Below are positions 26,838-59,720 of a stretch of DNA of 64,000 nt, one piece after another (the stretch's first letter is position 1; the number at the start of each line of letters is the position of its first letter). The translations under genes were made by a program, and so were the position numbers. Under the pieces are notes generated by a model. It saw only the letters and a program-made list of their open reading frames with translations. It did not search any database and was not told where the DNA came from. Origin of the DNA: Lineus longissimus (taxonomy: Eukaryota > Nemertea > Pilidiophora > Heteronemertea > Lineidae); assembly GCF_910592395.1 (NCBI RefSeq), contig NC_088325.1, forward strand, positions 8,250,109-8,314,108, written 5' to 3'.

Positions 26838-26943
26838 TGAAGTGAGAGATTTCTCATTTTAGATGTAAATATTGATACAAAACAGCATTGTTACCTGGTT
26901 TATTCCTTCACAGCATGTTGCCAACAATATCGACGTGGTAATT

Positions 26944-29479
26944 ATGAGCTCAAAACGAACTGGAGCAGCAGGTAATGTTGCAAATGCCCTGAATTTGTTG
27001 CATGATGCAAATATGCACACTGCATCTGGGGAAAGGCCTATGAACGAACTCATAACGGATTATTTCTTGGATGATGATGGAGTTGACTTCATTGAATCAG
27101 ACAGCGATGACGACTCTGTCTCTGATGAGGTTATACCAGCCATTCTTGATGCATCTACTGACCTAAATGAACCAGAGTCTGGGCTTGACTTGCATGATGA
27201 CAATGTACAGGACAATGCATTAGTCCATGATGATATCAGTAGTAGTGAAGTGAACAACAATGACACTGTCACAGAGCTTGAACCTGAATTTGGCTTAGAT
27301 GATATTCCTGAGGATGAGGTTGAGGCTGCTATGGCTTTGGTAGACATTGTGAGTGATGACAATATTAAAGAATGTGAGAAAATTCAGAACTTTAAATGTG
27401 AGTGCACGCGAAGAGGCAAGAACCTAGAAAATAAAGTGTCGTGTCATACGAAATTGTCCCAGGAATTTATTGCAAAGGTACGGATGGATATGGCCGCACT
27501 ATCGGATGACGAACGGGACTTGGTGTTAGTTGGCATGATAAGCAGCTTATCCACCTTCAGTGAAGAAACGCAAAGGCCAAGACAAAAGGTGAACACGAAA
27601 AGAAAACACCAATGGACAAGGTACATGCTACAAGGAGTTCGAGTATGCCGTTCCACGTTTATATTTGTGCACAAGTAAGTATAGTTAATGATTTGAAAGG
27701 TCTGAAACTGAATTAAATAAAACCGGTGCCTTTAGTTTTATTTCAGGAAAATTGTCCAAAAAAAGTGTCCAAGAAATTTACATTGGATTTTAGTTCAACA
27801 TTTCAACAAAATTTTTAATTCAACAATTGCCACGGCTCCAGATATGTTACCTCTACATAGATTTTAGAATCACATGGTATTTTATAGCTATATTTTGGCC
27901 TTCCTCTTTTAAATGAGATGACTATAGAAAAGGCCTTTGACTGATTCTAATCTTTGCAGTGAATAACTTTTATGACACTGTGACCTTTAAATTTGGAATA
28001 TTCAGACAAACAGGTGTACATGTAGTCCTTTTCTTTTCAGCAGAAGCTTGAATACACTCGATTCCAATATCAAGTGGTATAAAGAAAATGGAATTTCAAT
28101 TCGCAAGAAGAAGAGGGGCGGTAGGCACAAGACGAACAAGCGTTACCTGACTTATGATGACATCCAAAAGGTTGTGCAATTCCTATCAAATTTTGCTGAG
28201 GCAAATAACATAATACTTCCAGGCCGTCATCCCTGCCAAAAGAACCTCTTCGAAGTTAAGCTGCTGCCATCCCATGTGACGAAAGCTGAGGTATATCGGT
28301 TGTACAGGACAGCTATGAGAGAGACTGGCTTGCGCAGTGTGAAACTTAGCACATTCCGCAAGCTTTGGAAGGAACTGCTACCTAAGATTATTCGGACAAA
28401 ACCCATGACTGATTTGTGTGCAGTGTGTCAAAGTAATAACTATGCTGTTTTCCGCAGTGCCAACCTTAGTGAGGCAGACAAGTCAGATAGGCTCCGGCAG
28501 CAAGAAGTACATCTAGTTACTGTTTCAAAAGCCAGGGAGTACTACAAGGGCATGGTTAGTAATGCAAAACTAATCTGTAATGAGCTTGGCGTTGTGAAAC
28601 TACAAAAGTCTCCACCAGTGTCACGTGCAATCAACATGCATTACAGTTTTGATTATGTGCAACAAGTTATGTTTCCCAATGACCCCCTACAACCTGGCCC
28701 TATGTATTTTCTCGTGCCGAGAAAATGTTGTGTATTTGGGATATGTTGCGAAGCACTGCCACAACAGATTAACTACCTTGTTGACAAGGGTATGAATATT
28801 TCAAAGGGGTCCCAGTCTGTCATAAATTACTTGGACTATTTTTTCCTCAATTATGGGCTTGGGGAATACTATGCTGACCTCCACTGTGACAACTGTTGTA
28901 GCCAGAATAAAAATCGTCATGTTCTGAACTACCTCGCCTGGAGGACCATTCATAAACTCCACTTTAAGATCTCCCTAATTTTTTTAATAACAGGCCACAC
29001 TAAATTTGCCCCAGACTGGTGCTTTGGCTTGTTCAAACAACGTTTCAGGAGGACCCGAGTCAACACTTTGGATGACATAGCCAATGTTGTCAGCCAAAGC
29101 ACTGTGTCTGGAGTGAATATCCCTCAACTAGCAGGAAAAGAGGATGGTTCAATCATTGTGCCCTGCAAGGTTGCAAAATTTTCTTGATCCATACTTCCGA
29201 TCATTCCCTAAGATCAAGTCTTACCAACATTTTGAATTAAATTCAAACCATCCTGGTGTTGTTGTAGCTCGGGTTGAGCATGATTCCGTAGAATCGGTTT
29301 CTTTCCAGCTATTGAGAGATCCAGAAAATGTTCCTCCTGCAATATGCTCCTTGACAATTAAGCCTCCTGGGTTGGATCTTACTAGGCAAGCTTATCTGTT
29401 TGATAGCATAAGACCATACGTTGATGACTTCGCTCAATATGTTGTTTGTCCACAGCCTAAGAAAAATCGTAAAACCTAG
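26944..29479 (+). pseudogene. transposase-like protein with DNxxxQNKN motif (copy A), one frameshift
   Basis: Exon 1 (ATG 26,944 to 27,674) encodes a short head, a long Asp/Glu-rich acidic region and a domain with ALSDDERDLVLVGMI and RVCRSTFIFVHK. An intron 27,675-28,043 (GTAAGT...TTTTCAGCAG) leads to exon 2: KKKRGGRHKTNKR, LPGRHP, FRKLWKELLP, the C-x2-C pair LCAVCQSNNYAV, FDYVQQV, then LHCDNCCSQNKNRH and GHTKFAPDWCFGLFKQ. Asp residues in FDYVQQ, CDNC and PDWCFG are candidate catalytic acids of an RNase H-like fold. A one-base break in a T-run near 29,181 shifts the last ~100 residues. I recall this as a widespread invertebrate family of unknown function (DUF7869-like); the assignment needs a search. 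Its paralogue is at 49.9-56.3 kb. No terminal repeats were found for this copy. Confidence 0.75.
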
Positions 29480-48786: not shown

Positions 48787-49302
48787 AAGTAGCGAATGAC
48801 CAGTACTGTAGATGCAGCCAATTCATAGCAAAGAATCTAACAGCTAGACGCGAATTGGTGAAGACACTGCAGCTGTGCTATAATTGCCTCAAGCCGCACC
48901 AAGTTAAAATGTGCCCATCTACTGTCAGATGCAAACAGGATGCATGAGGGAGGAAACACCACAGTCTGCTGCATGAGATCAAACCCCAGGTCCACGAAAA
49001 CAGAACTTCTAAAGCTATGTATCACAAGCAGGTCAATCAGGGAACCTTCTTTCAATTGGTCAAGATATACGCCATGGAGAACAATGGGAGAATCATACGC
49101 ACAGTAGCAGTTTTGGACCTCTCGGAGTCAGATAATGCTTATCCACAAGAGCTAGCTGAAGATCTAGGATTGAAAGGAGAAATAAGACAATTCACTGTGA
49201 AGACAATGACGTCTGAGGCCACCATAGATTCGTACATTGTAAATCTGAGGATTTGTGCTAAGGACTCAAATTGGGGAGAAACTCTTCACACTTGTGAGGC
49301 AC
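48787..49302 (+). pseudogene. BEL/Pao gag zinc knuckles and protease N-terminal half
   Basis: The first frame carries CQYCRCSQFIAK, RRELVKTLQLCYNCLKPHQV and CPSTVRC, with a stop at ~48,943 before KHHSLLHE. These are the paired knuckles that close BEL gag. From 49,017 the protease follows: AMENNGRIIRTVAVLDLSES, where the active-site DSGSD is degraded to DLSES, then LAEDLGLKGEIRQFTVKTM. The frame is open to the GCAC target site at 49,299-49,302 and continues in phase at 57,739. Confidence 0.75.
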
Positions 49303-49604
49303 TCCCACAAAATCAGTCGCTTGTCGCATGGCCCTGTTTCAAGAAACAGGAATCCCGAACTGGGTCAAATTTTCATCAAACTTTTTTATCACATAAATTG
49401 ATAGAAAAAGGTCTAAATTTCGCTATAAACTGTGTAATATTATGAGATAATTAAAAAGTTGTCTTCAACGTGATTTTTGATGAGGTACCTTCAAAAAAAG
49501 CCTAAAACTATGTCTCAAACTGGGCAAAAAACATCGATTTTCAACCCGGCAGTTTTGTTATTGTCACGTGCCATACATGATGAAGCAGTACCTTGAAATG
49601 AAGC

Positions 49605-49775
49605 TTGTGACGTCAATTTTCCATATATGGCACAGGAAATAAATTATATTAATCTACTAACCAATGGGAGCGAGTTTAATAATGTAAACATTCCTCTTCT
49701 TGTTGCCGTGACCCAGCCTAAACTGTTCCGTTACGCGAGCTCTTATTGGCTCAAAGTTTTAACGCATGCGCAGTA
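49605..49775 (+). promoter_or_regulatory. candidate promoter of the transposon gene
   Basis: Within 310 bp of the start codon are a CRE (TGACGTCA, 49,608-49,615), a CArG box (CCATATATGG, 49,621-49,630), a CCAAT box (ACCAATGGGA, ~49,660), an inverted CCAAT (TTATTGGCTC, ~49,743) and an NRF-1-like GCATGCGCA (49,763-49,771). The clustering just upstream of the ATG suggests a real pol II promoter. No TATA box is at the expected place. Confidence 0.4.
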
Positions 49776-51909
49776 CTGTCTTCGCGCCTGCGCTGTGATT
49801 AACATACGGGACTTTATGAATGCAACAAGATTCGAAAGTTTGAGTGTTTCTGTGAACTTTTCTCAATCAAATTTGCCTTTACAGCGTAACTGTATAAGAA
49901 TAAGTTGACCAAAATGTCCCGGGGACGTGGCGGGACCGTTGACGTGGCTCGACTTCTTAATTCTGTGAGAGAAATTGGTATAGAAGACGATGGGATGGCC
50001 GATTTCATACAAGACTTTTTTGGTGGTGAGCAATCATTGAATCAATGCACTGTGACTCTGCTGTAGCTATCATTATGTAGGCCCCTGTCATGCTTGTGTC
50101 ATTTCTGGCTGATATGTAGGCCCAGCTTCATGGTGTATTGGGCATGGGCTTTCTGGCTAGCCATCACCTGATCACCACATTCACAGATTCACAGCCACAA
50201 CTCACAAGAGTCAAGACAGTCTAACTTAGTAACTAGGCCTAAGCCTACTACTGGGTATTGATGTTGACCTGTCAAATAAACATGAACAAAATAATGCCAA
50301 GTCTTAGCTCAAGCTAGGTCAAGGCTCAGACATTGATGCTTCAGTGTATTCTAGGCCTCGTTGAGCTTTGGTTTTTCGTATGACAGGCCCACATGTACAC
50401 ATGTACCCTGTGCCAGCATTGCACTCTGATTCCTCATCCTCCCTCCCATTCAGTGAAATGTAAACCCTTCCAATTATTTCTAGCGTTCTTCTTATTTCAG
50501 GACCTGATGGCGATAGTGATGATGGATCTGATTCGGAGATAATGTCTGACAAGAGTGAAGATGAAGATGATATCATTGGGCTTGTTGGCGGTGTTGATGA
50601 CGGCACTCAGGAACCAGATGGCCAAGATCAGCTTGGCATACATGTAATCTTTGATGAAATGGAAGGTGCGGAGGTTCTGCCGATCCAGGAATATCACCCT
50701 GAGGTTGACGGTGATGAAGAGGCAGCCGTCAAGTTAGCAGGCGCTCTCTTTGAGTTTAATAATCCAAGAGAAAAGACAAACCACTGCCACTGTTCGCTTT
50801 ATCAAGGAAAACCGTGTATGGAGCAGTTTACCCAAGGGAAAATTGATCAGATAAGGTATGGAAAATACTAGTAGTTATTCTTAACTTATGAGATTATCAT
50901 TTCAGGTTTTTCGAAGATCAATGACGTGGTTACTCTTGAACTGTAATTTTTTAGATATCAGTCATGTCGATGCTGAATGCAATAATGACATACATCGTAA
51001 GGTTTCATAATCTTTCATTGCAGGATGAATGTGCAGGACCTGACCCCGTATGAGAAGGACTTGTTTCTACTCGGTGTTATATGCTGTTCAATCAACAACT
51101 CAGAAAAAACTGCAAAGTCTAAAAGGAAGCACCAGGCGGACAGAAAGGAAACTAGACTTCGATTCTTCTATGTGGGCCAGAAAAGGATCTGTCGCGACTC
51201 CTTCTTCTTCTTAATGAATATTTCGTGTTATAAACTCACACAACTGAAGAAACACTTTCAGGAGGATGGGATCATGCCGTACACTAAAAAGAGTGGTGAG
51301 CATCTTGATAGATTTTTTGATGTTATTCACTTCTCACTGATTTGGTATAGAATGAAATGGCCAGGGCCATTGTGCTCACCTCATGTGGAGGACAGATGGA
51401 TAAAGAGCATGGTATTGTGTCATGTAGTGTTAGGTTTGATGTAGGTCCAAGCAATTACAATTTCCCCAAAATGGCCAATTTACAGTACATTCGACCTCTG
51501 TGACCTTGAAAAGTAGGTCAAATCAAAGAAGACCCGGGTGACACATTGAATGGTAGTTAGAATTAGATGTACCTATGATATAAAATTGGTGCCAATCGGG
51601 CAAGTCATTACTAGGAATAATGGCATTTTGAAGAATTTAGGATTTGGCCCCCTCCCTGGAGGCCAAACGGCAAATCAGATCGCACCAAACTTCGGTACCT
51701 GAGATCACCTGACCAAGGGGTACATGTGTACTTAATTTGTGATCAATAGTCATTGCAGTTAAGAAACGTGCCATAGTTACGGCCTGACGGCGAATTTATG
51801 CCATTTGACCTCTGTGACCTTGACAAGAAGGTCAAATTAAAAACCTGTGTGACATATACTGTATGGTGGTTAGGTGTACCCATGATATCAAATTAGTGGC
51901 AATCGGGCA

Positions 51910-53786
51910 AGAAGTTAAGGAAGATTGAATCTAGCAACTGTAAAGACCTATTTTCCGCAGTAAATGAGCTCCTGGGTAAGAGGAAAACATCTCCCTTACC
52001 AGACCACGATGACCCAAAGGAGTTGGCTGAGAAGTTCTGTAGTTTTTTCACAAGTAAGATCAGTAAGATACGGGAAAAACTCGTTTCGAGCAATGCTGTG
52101 TCGACACCAATTTCAGAGGACTCTGTTGAAGGCTGTGTTCCAGGCCTGTCCAGTTTCACCCATGCAACTGAGGATGAAATAAGGAAGCTGGTGTTGTCAA
52201 TACCCGCCAAGAGTTGCACTCTGGATCCGATCTCGACTGTCCTACTGAAAAAATGTGTCACTCCCCTTGTGCCAGTGCTCACATCTATAGTCAACAAATC
52301 AATGCAGCAAGGGCATGTACCTAAAGACCTCAAATTTGCCTTAGTGAAGCCTTTGTTGAAAAAGCCAACCTTGGACTGTGATGAACTTGCCAACTATAGG
52401 CCAGTTTCAAACCTGACCTATTTATCCAAGCTAATCGAAAGGGTTGTAGCTGTTCGTCTACGAGAGCATATGACAGTGAACGAGTTGTATGACCCGAATC
52501 AGTCGGCCTATCGAAAAGGCCACAGCACCGAGACTACACTTCTTAAAGTTACCAATGACATACTCACATCCTTGGATGTAGGACATGAGGGTCTCTTGGT
52601 GTTACTCGATCTTTCTGCGGCCTTTGATACGGTTGACCACACCATTCTGCTTGGCAGACTCCAGGAGAGGATAGGACTCTCGGACACTGCCCTGCACTGG
52701 TTCAGCTCATATCTCGAGGACAGACAACTTTCTGTGTGTATACAGGGTTTTACGTCAGCTGCTGTGTCACTGGAGTATGGAGTGCCGCAAGGGTCTGTGT
52801 TGGGCCCAGTACTTTTCACGATATATACAATTCCATTGGGAGACGTCATGAATAGAGCATGCATTCCATATCAATTGTACGCTGATGATAATCAGTTGTT
52901 GACTTCTGCTCGATGTGGTGACAACGCCCAGTGTAGCGCCATGGTTGCCTCCACGGAGGGTGGAATAGGCCATATCCAGTCTTGGCTGTCAACAAATTGG
53001 CTCTGTCTTAATGCCCCAAAAACGGACATGGTCAATTTTGTGTCAACGCGTCGACAGGGATCCATTCCCAGTATCAGTATCAGCGGAGTTCAGATTCCAA
53101 AATCTGAATGCGTTAAGGACCTGGGAGTGTGGCTCGATGAGGGAATGACTATGCAGACTCAAGTGAAAATGACATGCAAAGCTGCCTATGCCAGCCTCTA
53201 CAAAATTGGGAGGATAAGGAAATACCTAGATCGTCACTCAGTAGTAAGGCTTGTGCACGCATTGGTTGTCTCCCGACTAGACACTAACAATGCCATACTC
53301 TATGGTCTACCAGATAAGACCCTGGCTCCTTTGCAACGTGTGCTAAATTCCGCTGCTAGGCTTGTTTGTCGCCGCAGGAAATTTGACAGCATCACCCCAC
53401 TGCTCCGCGAGCTCCATTGGCTTCCTGTCAAGGCAAGAGTCGTTTACAAAATTCTGACTCTTGTACACAAGACAGTAGTGAGCAGTGGGGGTCCGATGTA
53501 CCTGTCAGATTTGCTGTTGGCGACAAGCGGCTGTACGAGGTCCACCACGTTCAAGGCGCTTAAAATCAAAAGAAGTAAGTCCAGGTATGGTGACCGCAGC
53601 TTCTCATGCTGTGGCCCATACCTGTGGAACAAACTTCCTGTTTCCGTCAGGGCTCTACCAGAAACATCATTTAAGAGGCAACTCAAAACTACCTTGTTTG
53701 AGGACTATTTAGGGGGGGTGGCGCCTTGAGCGTGGTGGACCACGGAAAGGCGCCCAATATAAGTTTTTCAATTCATTCATTCATAA
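51910..53786 (+). mobile_element. CR1/L2-type LINE, 5'-truncated, intact reverse transcriptase ORF
   Basis: The insertion begins inside the coding frame and ends in a 3' UTR with GGAAAGGCGCCCAATATAAG and an ATTCATTCATTC tail (53,770-53,784). It splits a repeat monomer of the hairpin-ended element (CAATCGGGCAAG on the left, GGATTTTGCCCCCTGGTGG on the right). It is the youngest recognisable layer in the nest. Confidence 0.85.
51912..53729 (+). CDS. LINE ORF2 reverse transcriptase (CR1/L2 clade), N-truncated, no internal stop
   Basis: A single frame of ~605 codons is open from the 5' truncation to TGA at 53,727. RT blocks: NYRPVSNLTYLSKLIERV, QSAYRKGHSTETTLLKV, LLDLSAAFDTVDHTIL (first catalytic Asp), YGVPQGSVLGPVLFTIYT, LYADDNQLL (catalytic pair) and KDLGVWLDEGM. 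The C-terminal domain includes LHWLPVKARVVYKIL and YLWNKLPVSVRA, typical of CR1/L2. The endonuclease was never inserted, so this copy cannot move by itself, but the absence of stops suggests a recent event. Confidence 0.9.
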   Translation, partial: KLRKIESSNCKDLFSAVNELLGKRKTSPLPDHDDPKELAEKFCSFFTSKISKIREKLVSSNAVSTPISEDSVEGCVPGLSSFTHATEDEIRKLVLSIPAKSCTLDPISTVLLKKCVTPLVPVLTSIVNKSMQQGHVPKDLKFALVKPLLKKPTLDCDELANYRPVSNLTYLSKLIERVVAVRLREHMTVNELYDPNQSAYRKGHSTETTLLKVTNDILTSLDVGHEGLLVLLDLSAAFDTVDHTILLGRLQERIGLSDTALHWFSSYLEDRQLSVCIQGFTSAAVSLEYGVPQGSVLGPVLFTIYTIPLGDVMNRACIPYQLYADDNQLLTSARCGDNAQCSAMVASTEGGIGHIQSWLSTNWLCLNAPKTDMVNFVSTRRQGSIPSISISGVQIPKSECVKDLGVWLDEGMTMQTQVKMTCKAAYASLYKIGRIRKYLDRHSVVRLVHALVVSRLDTNNAILYGLPDKTLAPLQRVLNSAARLVCRRRKFDSITPLLRELHWLPVKARVVYKILTLVHKTVVSSGGPMYLSDLLLATSGCTRSTTFKALKIKRSKSRYGDRSFSCCGPYLWNKLPVSVRALPETSFKRQLKTTLFEDYLGGVAP

Positions 53787-54251
53787 TCACATTTTTAAGG
53801 TTTTTGGATTTTGCCCCCTGGTGGTCAAGTGGTAAATCATATTGGACCAAACTTCGATCCCTGAGATCACCTGACTAAGGGGTAAATGTGTACAAAATTT
53901 GGTATCAATAGTCATTGCAGTTTAGAAACGTGCCATCGTTACATCCTAACGGCCAATTTACACCATTTGACCTCTGTGACCTTGAAAAGGAGGTCAAATC
54001 AAAAACCCGGAGGATATATGATGCACCTTTGCTAGAAGTACCTACCATATTTTTTTCAAAATTTCCCGACTACTATTAAGGGAGATATTGCATATTTTCA
54101 CTTTTAACGTTTGGCCCCCTGGTGGCCAAACCATGAAACGAATCTGACCGAAACTTGGTCTCCAAGGTGTCATTTCATAAGGGTACATGTGTACCAAGTT
54201 TCAACTCAATAGCTCTAACAGTTACGAAACGTGCCCTGCTAACGGACGACG

Positions 54252-54306
<55 letters not shown>

Positions 54307-56417
54307 GACGACGGACGCCACGGTATGGGATAAGCTCACCTCTGCTAAGAGGTGAGCTAAAAAGGTGTCACATTAATCTAAGCCTTACAGTTACACTTCC
54401 ACTAGTTCTTTTCTAGGGACTCAAATGGTGTTTTGTGAGTATTGCATGTGACCAGTTTATAAGCCTACCATCTACATGTTGCTTTTTGTACTGCCGTCCT
54501 GTACTGCTTGTAGCTTACCTGTCTTCAATGTCCACCTTAACCCTTGCTTTAGCATAGTATGTGTTCGTGGTGTTTGCTTTGTCTACATTGCACAAACCCC
54601 AGAAAGAAGTTACTTCTTATTGGGAGACACATAGCACATCTGTAGCGCCCATAATGTGAGAATCTTTTGGGAATTACAGGTTGAATTTCACTTGATCATT
54701 CCTCTCATGGCTTGTACTTGATTTACTTCAGGTGGAAGAAAGAGCAATAAGAAAGCCCTAAATCTCGAGGATGTTCAACAGATGGTGCATTTTGTCCTGA
54801 ACTTTGTTGAAGAACAAGCCATTTCACTGCCAGGCCGCATACCAGGGATATCGAGGGGTGACGTCAAGGTTATTCCCAGCAATTTCACAAAAGCAGACAT
54901 CTGGCGCAGGTACAGAGACTCCGCAGAAGAGGGACAAAAAGTTATGGGCCAGTCAACCTTCAGGAAACTATGGAAGAAAGTCCTCTCGTATGTTGTTGTC
55001 GCTAAGCCAGCAAGTGATCTCTGCCAAACTTGCCAAGATAACAACTACCTGATTGTGAGAAATGTAATTTGAAAATAATCAAATTATTTACTACAGAATC
55101 CTTGCAAAAACTTGTTGAATATGCGACACATCACACTGCCTAAGGATTTTGCAAGTCAGCACACCTGTTTCCATACTCTGAAACAAAAAGAGAAGAATGA
55201 GGTTACAAAATTATTTACTTTGTATGATTCTTAAACTCATCCAACCTTTTTTTCTCCTTTTATTTCAAGGTCAACGTTGATGAAGAGAGTAAAACAGAAA
55301 CACTACGAAAGCAGGAGCTTCACCTGATGCGGGCCACCATGGAACGTTCATTCTATAGGAACTGGTGCAACGAGGCCAAGGATGTTAAAAAACATTTGAA
55401 CTTGGAAAATCTTGGGATGAATGAACCTTGTTCGCGTGAGGTAGCATTCCACTATAGCTTCGACTACGCCCAGCAAGTGCATTACCCGTCAAACCCTTTT
55501 CAGCCTGGACCTATATACTTTAAGAAAGTGTCAGATTTTTGGTGTCAATACTGAGGGATTCCCTGCTCAGATAAATTACTTGATAGATGAGGCGGTGGCA
55601 TGTGGCAAAGGTGCGAATGCTGTTGTGAGCATGGTGCATCACTTTCTGGAGAACTATGGCATTTGTGAATGTCACCTGCGCATCAACGCCGATAACTGTT
55701 CGGGGCAAAACAAGAATAACACCATGCTCCAATACCTGTGCTGGCGCACCCTTGTAGGCTTGCATAAGTCAGTCTACATTCACTTCTTGATGGCCCGGCA
55801 CACCAACTTTTCACCGGACTGGTGCTTCGGACTTTTTAAGCAGAAATTCCATCACTAGATGCAGGAGGTTGCTGCTATTGTCAATGCCTCTACCCTTAAA
55901 GGTATCAAGAGGCCACAGCTCGTAGGTTCTCAGCATGAAGAAGTTATTGTTAAGATGTTCGGTTGGGATCAATTTCTTGGAAAGTATTTCAAGAAATTTG
56001 TGGGACTTAAGAAGATTCAGCACTTTTGATTCGATTTTGAGGAACCCGGTGTACTGTTCTCCCGAAAACTGTCAGACAGTGATGAGGGATCTTTCAAAAT
56101 TCTGAAAGTGGCTGTGGATGTCGAGGATCGACCAGAGGAGATAATTCCAAACGGACTGAGTGATGCCAGGAAGGCATACCTTTTCAATGAGATCAGGGAA
56201 TTTTGTAAGGAGGAGACACGGGATCTTGTGTGTCCCAATCCACATGATGTAATGGACATAGCACAAGAATAGCAGAGACTGATACAGACTACTCATGTTG
56301 GTGGTGGTGGTGGTGGTTGGGGGGGAGGGGCAAGGAGTTGATTTGCTAGGCGTGCAGGTCCAGTGATCATGAGTTAGCATTTCCTATGCTTATCAGTGTC
56401 ACAGTAGAGTCTTTTAA

Positions 56418-57097
56418 CCCTTTTAGTGTAACTCTCGACCTCAGGTCGAGATGGAAAAGCTACCCCGTTAGTGTCACTCTCGACCTGAGTTCAACAGGGG
56501 ATATAACGTTAGAAAACAGCATGTACATCGTTTCAGCATTGTCCAGTCCGTGTTTTATTTCTACCTTTCGAAAGAGCCAATCAAATCTGATCGTTTGGTA
56601 CCGAATACTCATATGCTTTCTACAGTGATATTTCCCGCAATTTCGCTCTGAAAATCAAACCAGCGGAAACACCGAATTCTGACGATAGTTCAAAATCACA
56701 TTTTCACCCCAAAAAATAACCAATTCATGTTGAAATTTCTTTAGCTTCATCCAGGATAGTGTACTAAACAATTATCAGAAGAGATCTGCTACAATTACAA
56801 ACAATTACTAAAGTACATTTTAGAAAATTATTTCAAAGAAATCGTCAGAATTTGCGCGTTTTACACACTTTTTCATGGTTTTTACCCAAAAATGAAATGA
56901 CATATACGCATTCAACTGGTACCATCCTTTGCTCCAGGCAATTGCCTACAAACTTTTTAATTACTGTAAAGTGATAGAAGTGAACACTTCTGAGCTACAA
57001 GGCTTCATAAAAGAGTTACCTTAAAGCTGCTAAAACCCAAAAACATGCTGGACATTCTGGGGTAGGAAAATGTAAAACATGGTTGACACTAAAAGGG
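56418..57097. mobile_element. piggyBac-type MITE, 680 bp, TTAA duplication
   Basis: The ends CCCTTTTAGTGTAAC and GTTGACACTAAAAGGG are inverted repeats with one to two mismatches, each flanked by TTAA (56,414-56,417 and 57,098-57,101). CCC ends at a TTAA target define piggyBac-like elements. A short tandem repeat of CTCTCGACCT lies inside the left end. No transposase ORF. Confidence 0.85.
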
Positions 57098-57734
57098 TTA
57101 AGTGATCGAAATAGTGACTTTCATGCAAAACGCTGAAGTTGGGATTTATCAAGATGGCCGCATGTTGCTAATGGCAACCAAATTTTGAGGCCTTATAAAG
57201 CCTGCAAATGTTCCTGACAAGTACTTTTTTTCAGTATCAACCTTGTATTATGTTTCTTTTCAAATAAAGTTCCATAAGAAACTGTTTAAATTCAAGTCAT
57301 ACTTTATACTTTTTTTATAGATTTTCTCCATTTCTGTTTAAAAACTCAAAATTTCGAAACATGAAAAAAGTGAAAAAAGTGAAATTTTGCCCAACTAGAG
57401 ATTGGGAGTGACCTGGAACACCTTCTCCTGGATAGTCTTTAACCCATACTACCCCTACCAAGAAAAACATTGATTCCTCCCTCGGATTTGATGGTTGCCG
57501 AGGACAAATGCAGGAGAAACTGTGAAAAGTGTACTCCAACTTCAAAGGCCTTTTTCTCATTTTCGGCGGTTCCTGAAACCATGACAAACCTCCAAATTCA
57601 TTTGGCCATAACTTTTTTATTTATGGTCCGATTTCCAAAAGGTGTGGTGTTTTGTGTAGCTCTTGATGCCAACTAGTCATATATAAGGCTAACTCAATTT
57701 GAAAAAAAATGCCCAAGTGACTGATTTTGTGGGA

Positions 57735-59720
57735 GCACCTCACATTTGTAAAGCCTGGACAGTGGAATCTGATACGTTCAAGTGTTCGTCGCAGAGACTT
57801 AGCCACAGTTGGGGTCATTGTCGGGATCTTGAAATACCGGATTACATAGACACGTCAGAGGTCAAGATGTTAATTGGTATCGACTGCCAAGAGATACACC
57901 TACAGCATGAGGTTTGCAGAGGGGGAGAGGATCAACCCATAGCTGTACGGATCAAACTGGAATGGACCATTATGGGAGTAGGCGCAAAGACAGAAGCGGA
58001 AAATGAAGCTATCGAGGCCAGGGTTAACTTCATCAAGACAGAAGACCAGGCACTCCAGGACCAACTGAAAATGTTCTTGGAAACTGAGTCATTTGGTATC
58101 ACCAACGACACCAAGGATCCAACTTCATCTGAGGACAGGCGTGCCCTTGAGATACTGCAGAACAGCACCAAGTTAGTAAACAGACACTGTCAGGTTCCAA
58201 TATTATGAAAGAATGACTATAGAATGACTATTATAAAAGCAGTGACATGGCAAAAAAACGCTACCGTGGTCTTATTAATTGATTTCAGAAAGACACAGAT
58301 TTCAAAGATCTGTACTGCAAGACAATGAACACACACATTACTAGCGGATTTGCTCGACAGCTTACAGAGGTCGAAGCAGCATCTATTTTCCCTAAAACAT
58401 GGTACTTGCCACACTTTGGAGTGACAAATCCGCACAAACCGGGAAAGGTCAGGATAGTTTTTGATGCTGCAGTGAAATCGAGAGGAACCTGCCTAAATGA
58501 CAACCTTATGACGGGACCAGACTTGCTGAATACAGAATAGTCTGTTTGGGATTCTGCAAAGGTTTCGTCTGTACAAAGTCAACTATTGGGCAGAGGTGGA
58601 AGCAATGTTCCACCAGGTGAAAGTAGATAGAGAAGATGCAGATGCCTTACGCTTTCTATGGAAGAGAGATATTGAAGCCCCTGGACCATCCAAGGTTTAG
58701 CAATGGACTCTCCTGCATGCGCAAACTATGTACTGAGGAGGACAGGAATTGACAACAAGGATTAGTTCAGCCAGGAAGTCGTTGATGCCATGTCCACAGA
58801 TTTCTACATGGATGACCTGCATAAATCGATTGACTGTACACCTACAAGCATTACCTTTGCCACAGATGTCATAAAGCTGGCGAGAAAGGGGGATGGCGGC
58901 TCCAACAAATGCACGCAATACAGGAGGTCGATTTTGACAAAGAGGAGGCTCCATTACAGAAAACCCTGGGAGTAAGGTTGAATGTTTGAGAAGATATTTC
59001 CTGTTCATCTGTCAGCCAAAACAGATTGTCATGGCCAAGAGAGGAATTGTCAGCCTTCTGCCGTCGATCAACGACCCATATGGATACATCACACCTTTCA
59101 CAATCAGGGCAAAGTTCCTTATCCAGGAAGTTTGGAGAAGCAGTTCAGATTGGGATGAACCTTTGACCAGGGAATTGGAAGAAAGGGGATTACGTGGTTG
59201 GATGAGCTGAAGGACCTCGTCTTTTTCAAGTTACCTCGACATCATGAACACTTCACAACACAAGTAGCAGAAACAGAGACGCACATCTTCTGCGATGCGT
59301 CAAAACTGGGATTTGGAGCTGTTGGATACCTGAGATCTCTCCTAGCTTCAAAAAAACATTTTGCCCCACTGAAAACGATCTCAATCCCCAGACTCGAACT
59401 ACAAGGAGCTGTTCTAGCTGTGAGACTTGGGAAGCTGCTAGAAGAGGAACTACACTTGAAGCGTATCAAGATTGTCTATTGGACAGTCTCCATGATTGTA
59501 CTCCAGTATCTGAGAAACAAGACGCAGAGATTCACACCTTTCCTAGCGAATCGGGTGACAGAAATTTTGAAACAGTCAAAAGTTGCAGATTGGTATCATG
59601 TTGCGACCAAGTTCAATCCAGTCGACCACTGCACGAGGGGACTGAAGGCTGCATAACTCCAGTCAGAACACATCTGGGCGAATCCAAGCTAAAGGGGTAC
59701 AAGTGGTTTGTTCCGATTAC
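57735..59720 (+). pseudogene. BEL/Pao protease C-half, reverse transcriptase and RNase H
   Basis: From the right copy of GCAC the frame gives APHICKAWTVES, EIPDYIDTSEVKMLIGIDC (end of BEL protease), VRIKLEWTIMGVG, and stops at ~58,208. RT follows: YLPHFGVTNPHKPGKVRIVF, then shifts and stops to STDFYMDDLHKS (YMDD catalytic box, ~58,805), KRGIVSLLPSINDPYGYITP and FLIQEVWRSSSDWD. The Pao-type RNase H frame (59,198-59,656) has IFCDASKLGFGAV, ISIPRLELQGAVLAVRL and PVDHCTRGLKAA. Several stops. Integrase is not recognisable after 59,720. Confidence 0.85.

Follow-up and report, generated by a model that had tools for sequence, protein, structure and literature searches.

Sola transposons, as a plant annotation guide (PMC10741241) describes them, encode a transposase with a triad of aspartates (DDD), generate 4-bp target duplications, have a distribution that ranges from bacteria to metazoans, measure 2–9 kb in most cases and carry terminal repeats from 11 bp upwards; for Sola2, Bao and Jurka (PMC3627910) give AT-rich duplications of the form AWWT (W being A or T), including ATAT, AAAT and ATTT. 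Other groups that are candidates for comparison generate shorter duplications, i.e. 3 bp for Zator / ISAzo13 and 2 bp (TA) for mariner, according to a review (PMC10045372). Here we compare with these systems an 8450-bp element found in a stretch of 64,000 nucleotides of the Lineus longissimus genome (NC_088325.1, positions 8,250,109 to 8,314,108, forward strand), which is referred to as the window. With high confidence, this element is a decayed DDD/E DNA transposon (the third residue being aspartate or glutamate), whose own five-exon gene, belonging to the DUF7869 family, encoded its transposase. A DDD/E transposase that joins the ends to target DNA whose two strands are cut 4 bases apart best explains the combination of ends, target duplications, predicted fold and aspartate triad described below, and the published features of the known groups make Sola, of the Sola2 type, the probable affiliation.

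Ends of the element and insertion site

The element and its ends are located as follows:
49290–49293 (no strand): left target duplication, ACTT; ATTT at the equivalent site of this insertion on C12
49294–57743 (+): transposon with corrected ends, 8450 bp
49294–49323 (+): left terminal inverted repeat, identical to the right repeat at 27 of 30 bases
57714–57743 (−): right terminal inverted repeat
57744–57747 (no strand): right target duplication, ATTT

The perfect 16-bp inverted sequence TCCCACAAAATCAGTC, on which the initial annotation had based its termini, is indeed present at 49303–49318 (+) and 57719–57734 (−); with up to three mismatches allowed it is found three times against 1.01 times expected, the third occurrence having three mismatches. 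This sequence, however, forms the internal portion of GTGAGG(TG/CA)CTCCCACAAAATCAGTC, a more extended terminal repeat. In the genome searched (391 Mb, 30 contigs) the 16-mer has 13 perfect copies, 12 of which, including the two in the window, extend outward in the same way as GTGAG(G/C)NNC (N being any base), with L014 as the sole exception. Thus, at both ends the true tip lies 9 bp beyond the 16-mer.

This also changes the target duplication. The annotated element, reaching from TCCCAC to GTGGGA, had been assigned a GCAC duplication, and GCAC does flank both 16-mers in the window, but it sits within the terminal repeat: the other two-ended copies have GTGC at their left end but GCAC at their right end, i.e. 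an inverted rather than a direct repeat. In the window the left end reads GTGAGGCAC in place of the usual GTGAGGTGC, and GCAC therefore seemed to be directly repeated. Moreover, two short relatives of 428 bp each (L017 and L021) show perfect 4-bp duplications, AATT and ATAT, at the corrected tips only. The original duplication of the window copy was probably ATTT, because on C12, where this insertion is also present, ATTT is found on the left.

A second line of evidence comes from the sequences into which the element has inserted:
48948–49293 (+): left BEL flank, protease region, with weak Pfam matches of its own
57744–59656 (+): BEL flank on the right, extending to the Peptidase_A17 matches

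That these flanks are of the BEL/Pao type, as initially annotated, is borne out by Peptidase_A17 matches at 59159–59653 (E 1e-17) and 58938–59207 (E 1.9e-11). The joined BEL frame is open across the GCAC junction, yet it is equally open across the corrected one, so that frame continuity could not choose between the two. A genome search for the protein encoded by the right flank gave a list of 154 matches, from which 30 loci were excised; two of these were the window and its duplicate, and the remaining 28 were scored against both junctions, the site being spanned by 27 of them. The corrected junction scored higher in 23 of these 27 loci, which thus fit an insertion at this position, with the GCAC junction favoured in only four; at the corrected junction, alignments are gap-free within 22 residues of the site in 19 of the 27. 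As the genome search found no empty BEL site with three or fewer mismatches to the window's own flanks, the empty-site evidence is provided by these diverged BEL loci. Overall, ends delimited by GCAC are hardly tenable.

Related copies in the worm genome

When the genome was queried with a 137-residue piece of the protein, 45 matches were obtained, some of them fragments of one locus and both DUF7869 genes of the window among them, and five further gene copies (L070–L074), representing two other lineages, were retrieved. L070–L072 have equal match scores and lie in DNA that is 99.7–99.9% identical; this identity stops at GTGACCCAACACCAC(G/A)AAATGAGTC, beyond which the flanks are unrelated, and the three elements of 5179, 3820 and 5173 bp are bordered by exact duplications (ATAT, ATAT and ATTT, respectively). 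L073 and L074, which form the third lineage, are 99.2% alike and share the tip GTGACCCTCCAGTACAAAAC, with ATTT on both sides of L074. Thus, the terminus identical to that of the window is absent from the other gene copies, but these have related GTGA... ends, and in four of the five copies exact 4-bp AWWT duplications (ATAT, ATAT, ATTT and ATTT), which supports the assignment as a transposase and at the same time corrects the ends.

A motif derived from the first two kinds of tips matches the genome 22 times, and not once when it is reversed. Taken over all two-ended worm copies, six of nine carry an exact 4-bp duplication (AATT, ATAT, ATAT, ATAT, ATTT and ATTT), and ATTT is also found outside of single ends on C5, C10 and C15 (which have one common flank), C12 and C6. 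That L017 and L021 are gene-less suggests that ends can be moved in trans. The L. longissimus protein P0056 has its sequence in copies from this genome.

To some extent, repeated ends and genes have also been spread by segmental duplication. The window from 39052 to 64000 has an inverted duplicate at C19:7941200–7962770, i.e. on the same chromosome at a distance of about 350 kb and with 97–99% identity, and a partial duplicate of its 39–64 kb region exists on C12 (96–98% identity). Both carry the insertion studied here and therefore do not represent independent insertions; the transposon in the C19 duplicate (L022) has shrunk to 1197 bp. The common flank of the ends on C5, C10 and C15 fits the same process. 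It is very improbable, though, that segmental duplication alone accounts for all copies, since the flanks of L070–L072 and L074 break exactly at the tips and show target duplications.

The window also contains a second DUF7869 gene at 26944–29479 (+), with 46% identity in the piece compared, open reading frames (ORFs) at 26869–27678, 27991–29187 and 29132–29479, and the DNCxxQNKN and PDWCFG motifs retained.

The DUF7869 gene and its product

The candidate transposase gene and the insertions nested within the element comprise:
49914–50025 (+): exon 1, from ATG, with donor GTGAGC
50501–50855 (+): exon 2
51024–51295 (+): exon 3
51353–54358 (+): later insertion block of 3.0 kb in intron 3, missing from the C12 copy and containing a reverse transcriptase ORF
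54732–55063 (+): exon 4
55270–56272 (+): exon 5, which contains the DUF7869 match and the three aspartates as well as one frameshift and two in-frame stops
56414–57101 (no strand): probable nested small element of 688 bp with 16-bp perfect inverted ends starting TTAACCC

All introns are of the GT–AG type, and exons 1–4 fuse into a single open frame. Exon 5, with its frameshift at approximately 55500–55555 and stops at 55856–55858 and 56027–56029, leaves the window copy unable to encode the full protein. Its gene matches Pfam PF25273 (DUF7869) with E 8.4e-10 and 39 bits, above the cut-off of 26, which seven bacterial and two animal proteins also exceed; the read-through protein is 51% identical to a sea urchin protein over 98% of the part searched. 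For this family, Pfam states no function, and its model spans only part of the catalytic domain. Of the aspartate triad, D434 and D513 are invariant and D555 is at least 90% conserved, with spacings of 78 and 41 residues. The predicted structure of the family has an RNase H fold resembling that of integrases and mariner transposases. The predicted model thus shares an RNase H-like catalytic core with Mos1 mariner and retroviral integrases, but identities are 7–13% among the matches listed, and a shared fold does not amount to membership. Foldseek returned only two matches at E ≤0.001, both TnsB transposases with a TM-score of 0.16 to the query; solved structures searched by sequence yielded none up to E 1, NCBIfam nothing above cut-off and Rfam no match. 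With defined ends, the triad and the predicted fold, the DNxxxQNKN (DUF7869) protein has held its place as the candidate put forward in the initial annotation. The predicted fold, together with mobile relatives in the worm and in bacteria, very probably makes DUF7869 a transposase.

If DUF7869 were a passenger or regulator instead, another, unseen transposase would have mobilized the element. In fact, DUF7869 is not the only gene inside, as had been assumed: another mobile gene, a reverse transcriptase ORF of 610 codons at 51897–53729 (RVT_1, E 4.1e-26), is present, and the role of DUF7869 as a transposase is itself a prediction. The reverse transcriptase, however, is part of the later insertion block; furthermore, in bacterial elements of about 2.0–2.1 kb the DUF7869 ORF takes up nearly the entire interval between the two termini, and the conserved aspartates are placed on a predicted integrase-like fold. 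A passenger role is therefore very improbable. The insertion block, in which GGTCAAA units recur and a (GAC)n tract is also present, presumably bears a long interspersed nuclear element (LINE), and the 688-bp unit, judged by its ends, is probably a nested TTAA element, which we take to resemble a small element of the piggyBac type. With these nested insertions present, the description as a single-gene element could fit only its state before they occurred.

In a tree of 40 proteins, the 14 animal proteins and seven metagenomic ones form a group separate from the bacterial proteins, with a support of 94/93 that is not decisive; within the tree, the window protein clusters with those of echinoderms rather than with the other protein from Lineus.

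Bacterial relatives

Scanning prokaryote genomes with the animal alignment resulted in 32 pattern matches, 13 of which were confirmed as DUF7869 loci with 30–40% identity in the best segment. These were found in records of Desulfobacterota, Thiomargarita, Nitrospirales and Legionellales. Terminal repeats surround the gene in eight of the 13: in seven loci these are exact repeats of 21–43 bp, as compared with a maximum of 14 when each of these loci was shuffled 100 times (moving two-base blocks, which keeps dinucleotide composition only roughly), and in L008 the repeat has 22 of 24 bases. The resulting elements, which look like insertion sequences, are 2.0–3.5 kb long. Their tips start with G in 16 of 16 cases and with GGGG in 11, and AAAA occupies tip positions 16–19 in 14 of the 16, as it does in the window element and in L074. 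On the outside, ANNT is found at all 16 tips (background 6–11%), and three of the eight elements have identical flanks, i.e. exact duplications (AAAT, AATT and ATTT). The similarity between worm and bacterial tips is reached by 30, 191 and 23 of 20000 interior 25-mers of the worm elements (window, L070 and L074, respectively) and by 38 of 20000 shuffled tips. At the level of individual sequences, the L074 tip ACAAAACCGTAC is strikingly close to the bacterial tips ACAAAACCTACC, ACAAAACGTATC and CAAAACGTACC (L001, L004 and L009 being compared).

A profile of seven bacterial proteins retrieved 731 relatives. About 90 of the 120 listed are on contigs of 2–3 kb, as would be expected if multi-copy elements break assemblies, and, where names are given, all but one read 'hypothetical'. 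In IMG/VR, none of eight pattern matches was confirmed, and plasmids and phages searched with one bacterial DUF7869 protein gave no match. L010 is a DUF7869 gene in the metagenome-assembled genome of a sponge-associated Cycloclasticus, where it may represent bacterial or host DNA.

Several observations weigh against the explanation preferred here. Among the worm copies, the duplication matches at three of four bases in the window (ACTT versus ATTT) and at two of four in L022, which is the same insertion; L073 is flanked by GACT and CAAC, i.e. by no duplication, and one single end on C20 by CCTT, which is not AWWT. No ends were detected around the window's other DUF7869 gene, its best repeat scores being equal to those of control segments. 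Among the bacterial loci, five of the 13 yielded no terminal repeat: in L005 and L013 the match is near a contig end, in L010 and L011 it spans part of the protein only, and L002 lacks a repeat in spite of its long open frame. The position of the bacterial tips was chosen by eye, at the transition from A..T to G, which makes the figure of 16 out of 16 in part a matter of choice. Among the bacterial elements, five of the eight (L001, L004, L006, L008 and L009) carry two unlike ANNT words, and in the worm–bacterial tip comparison a shift by two bases scores slightly above the true register (12.69 versus 12.31). Unlike ANNT flanks also occur in long contigs (L001 and L004) and may stem from recombination, from the assembly or from a genuine property of insertion.

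Mechanism and relationship to known superfamilies

A DUF7869 transposase would bind the terminal repeats of approximately 25–30 bp, which begin with GTGA... and carry AAAA at a distance of 16 bp from the tip. The three aspartates of its RNase H domain would then serve to release the ends and to join them to target DNA whose strands are cut 4 bases apart, preferably at AWWT, and gap repair would leave the 4-bp duplication. The mariner-like predicted core suggests a cut-and-paste rather than a copy-paste mode, and the bacterial relatives, with sizes of 2.0–3.5 kb, may act likewise as insertion sequences.

Among the groups introduced above, Sola—and in particular Sola2—provides the best match, in line with the Sola-like fit suggested initially. 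The element and its relatives share with the Sola features given in the sources cited the DDD triad, here conserved on a predicted RNase H fold; the 4-bp target duplications, exact in six of nine worm copies and three of eight bacterial elements; the AWWT target, seen in the six exact worm copies and in bacteria as AAAT, AATT and ATTT; inverted repeats of at least 11 bp, which in the window element agree at 27 of 30 positions; a size of several kilobases; and the occurrence in both bacteria and metazoans. This likeness is drawn from published features and not from transposase sequences, and within what these sources describe no tested feature differs.

It is on this point that a different assignment has to be considered, namely that DUF7869 defines a separate superfamily of bacterial insertion sequences and animal transposons, held together by the same AAAA tip layout, aspartate spacing and AWWT target, and distinct from Sola. 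In this case, which we regard as possible but doubtful, the Sola-like AWWT duplications and the DDD triad would be shared by chance or because of a common mechanism. Besides the nature of the Sola comparison, this reading is supported by curated libraries giving DUF7869 no transposase name above cut-off and by a 2023 review of transposon links between prokaryotes and eukaryotes (PMC10045372), which in the passage concerned names other pairs and not Sola; against it stands the agreement with every Sola feature that the published descriptions allow to be tested. Sola2 is thus retained as the probable affiliation.

Zator / ISAzo13 also combines a DDE/D transposase with a distribution over bacteria and eukaryotes, and PF07592 (ISAzo13) matched one of nine proteins scanned (P0001, E 0.0013). 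This match, at 18.3 bits, is below the cut-off of 26.9, and it is outweighed by the 3-bp duplications of that group, which differ from the 4 bp found here.

Implications

Our analysis proposes a function for DUF7869, a family that named records examined here, from several animal phyla and from bacteria, describe as uncharacterised or hypothetical, and for which the literature searched, covering only part of published papers, contained no mention by name. DUF7869 genes are liable to be miscounted as host genes. In addition, bacterial insertion sequences and animal transposons become linked via protein, target and tip layout. The presence of recently copied elements, 99.7–99.9% alike, in a single worm genome makes a functional test practical. 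If membership in Sola is true, the Pfam family gains a name; if not, DUF7869 would represent a new superfamily.

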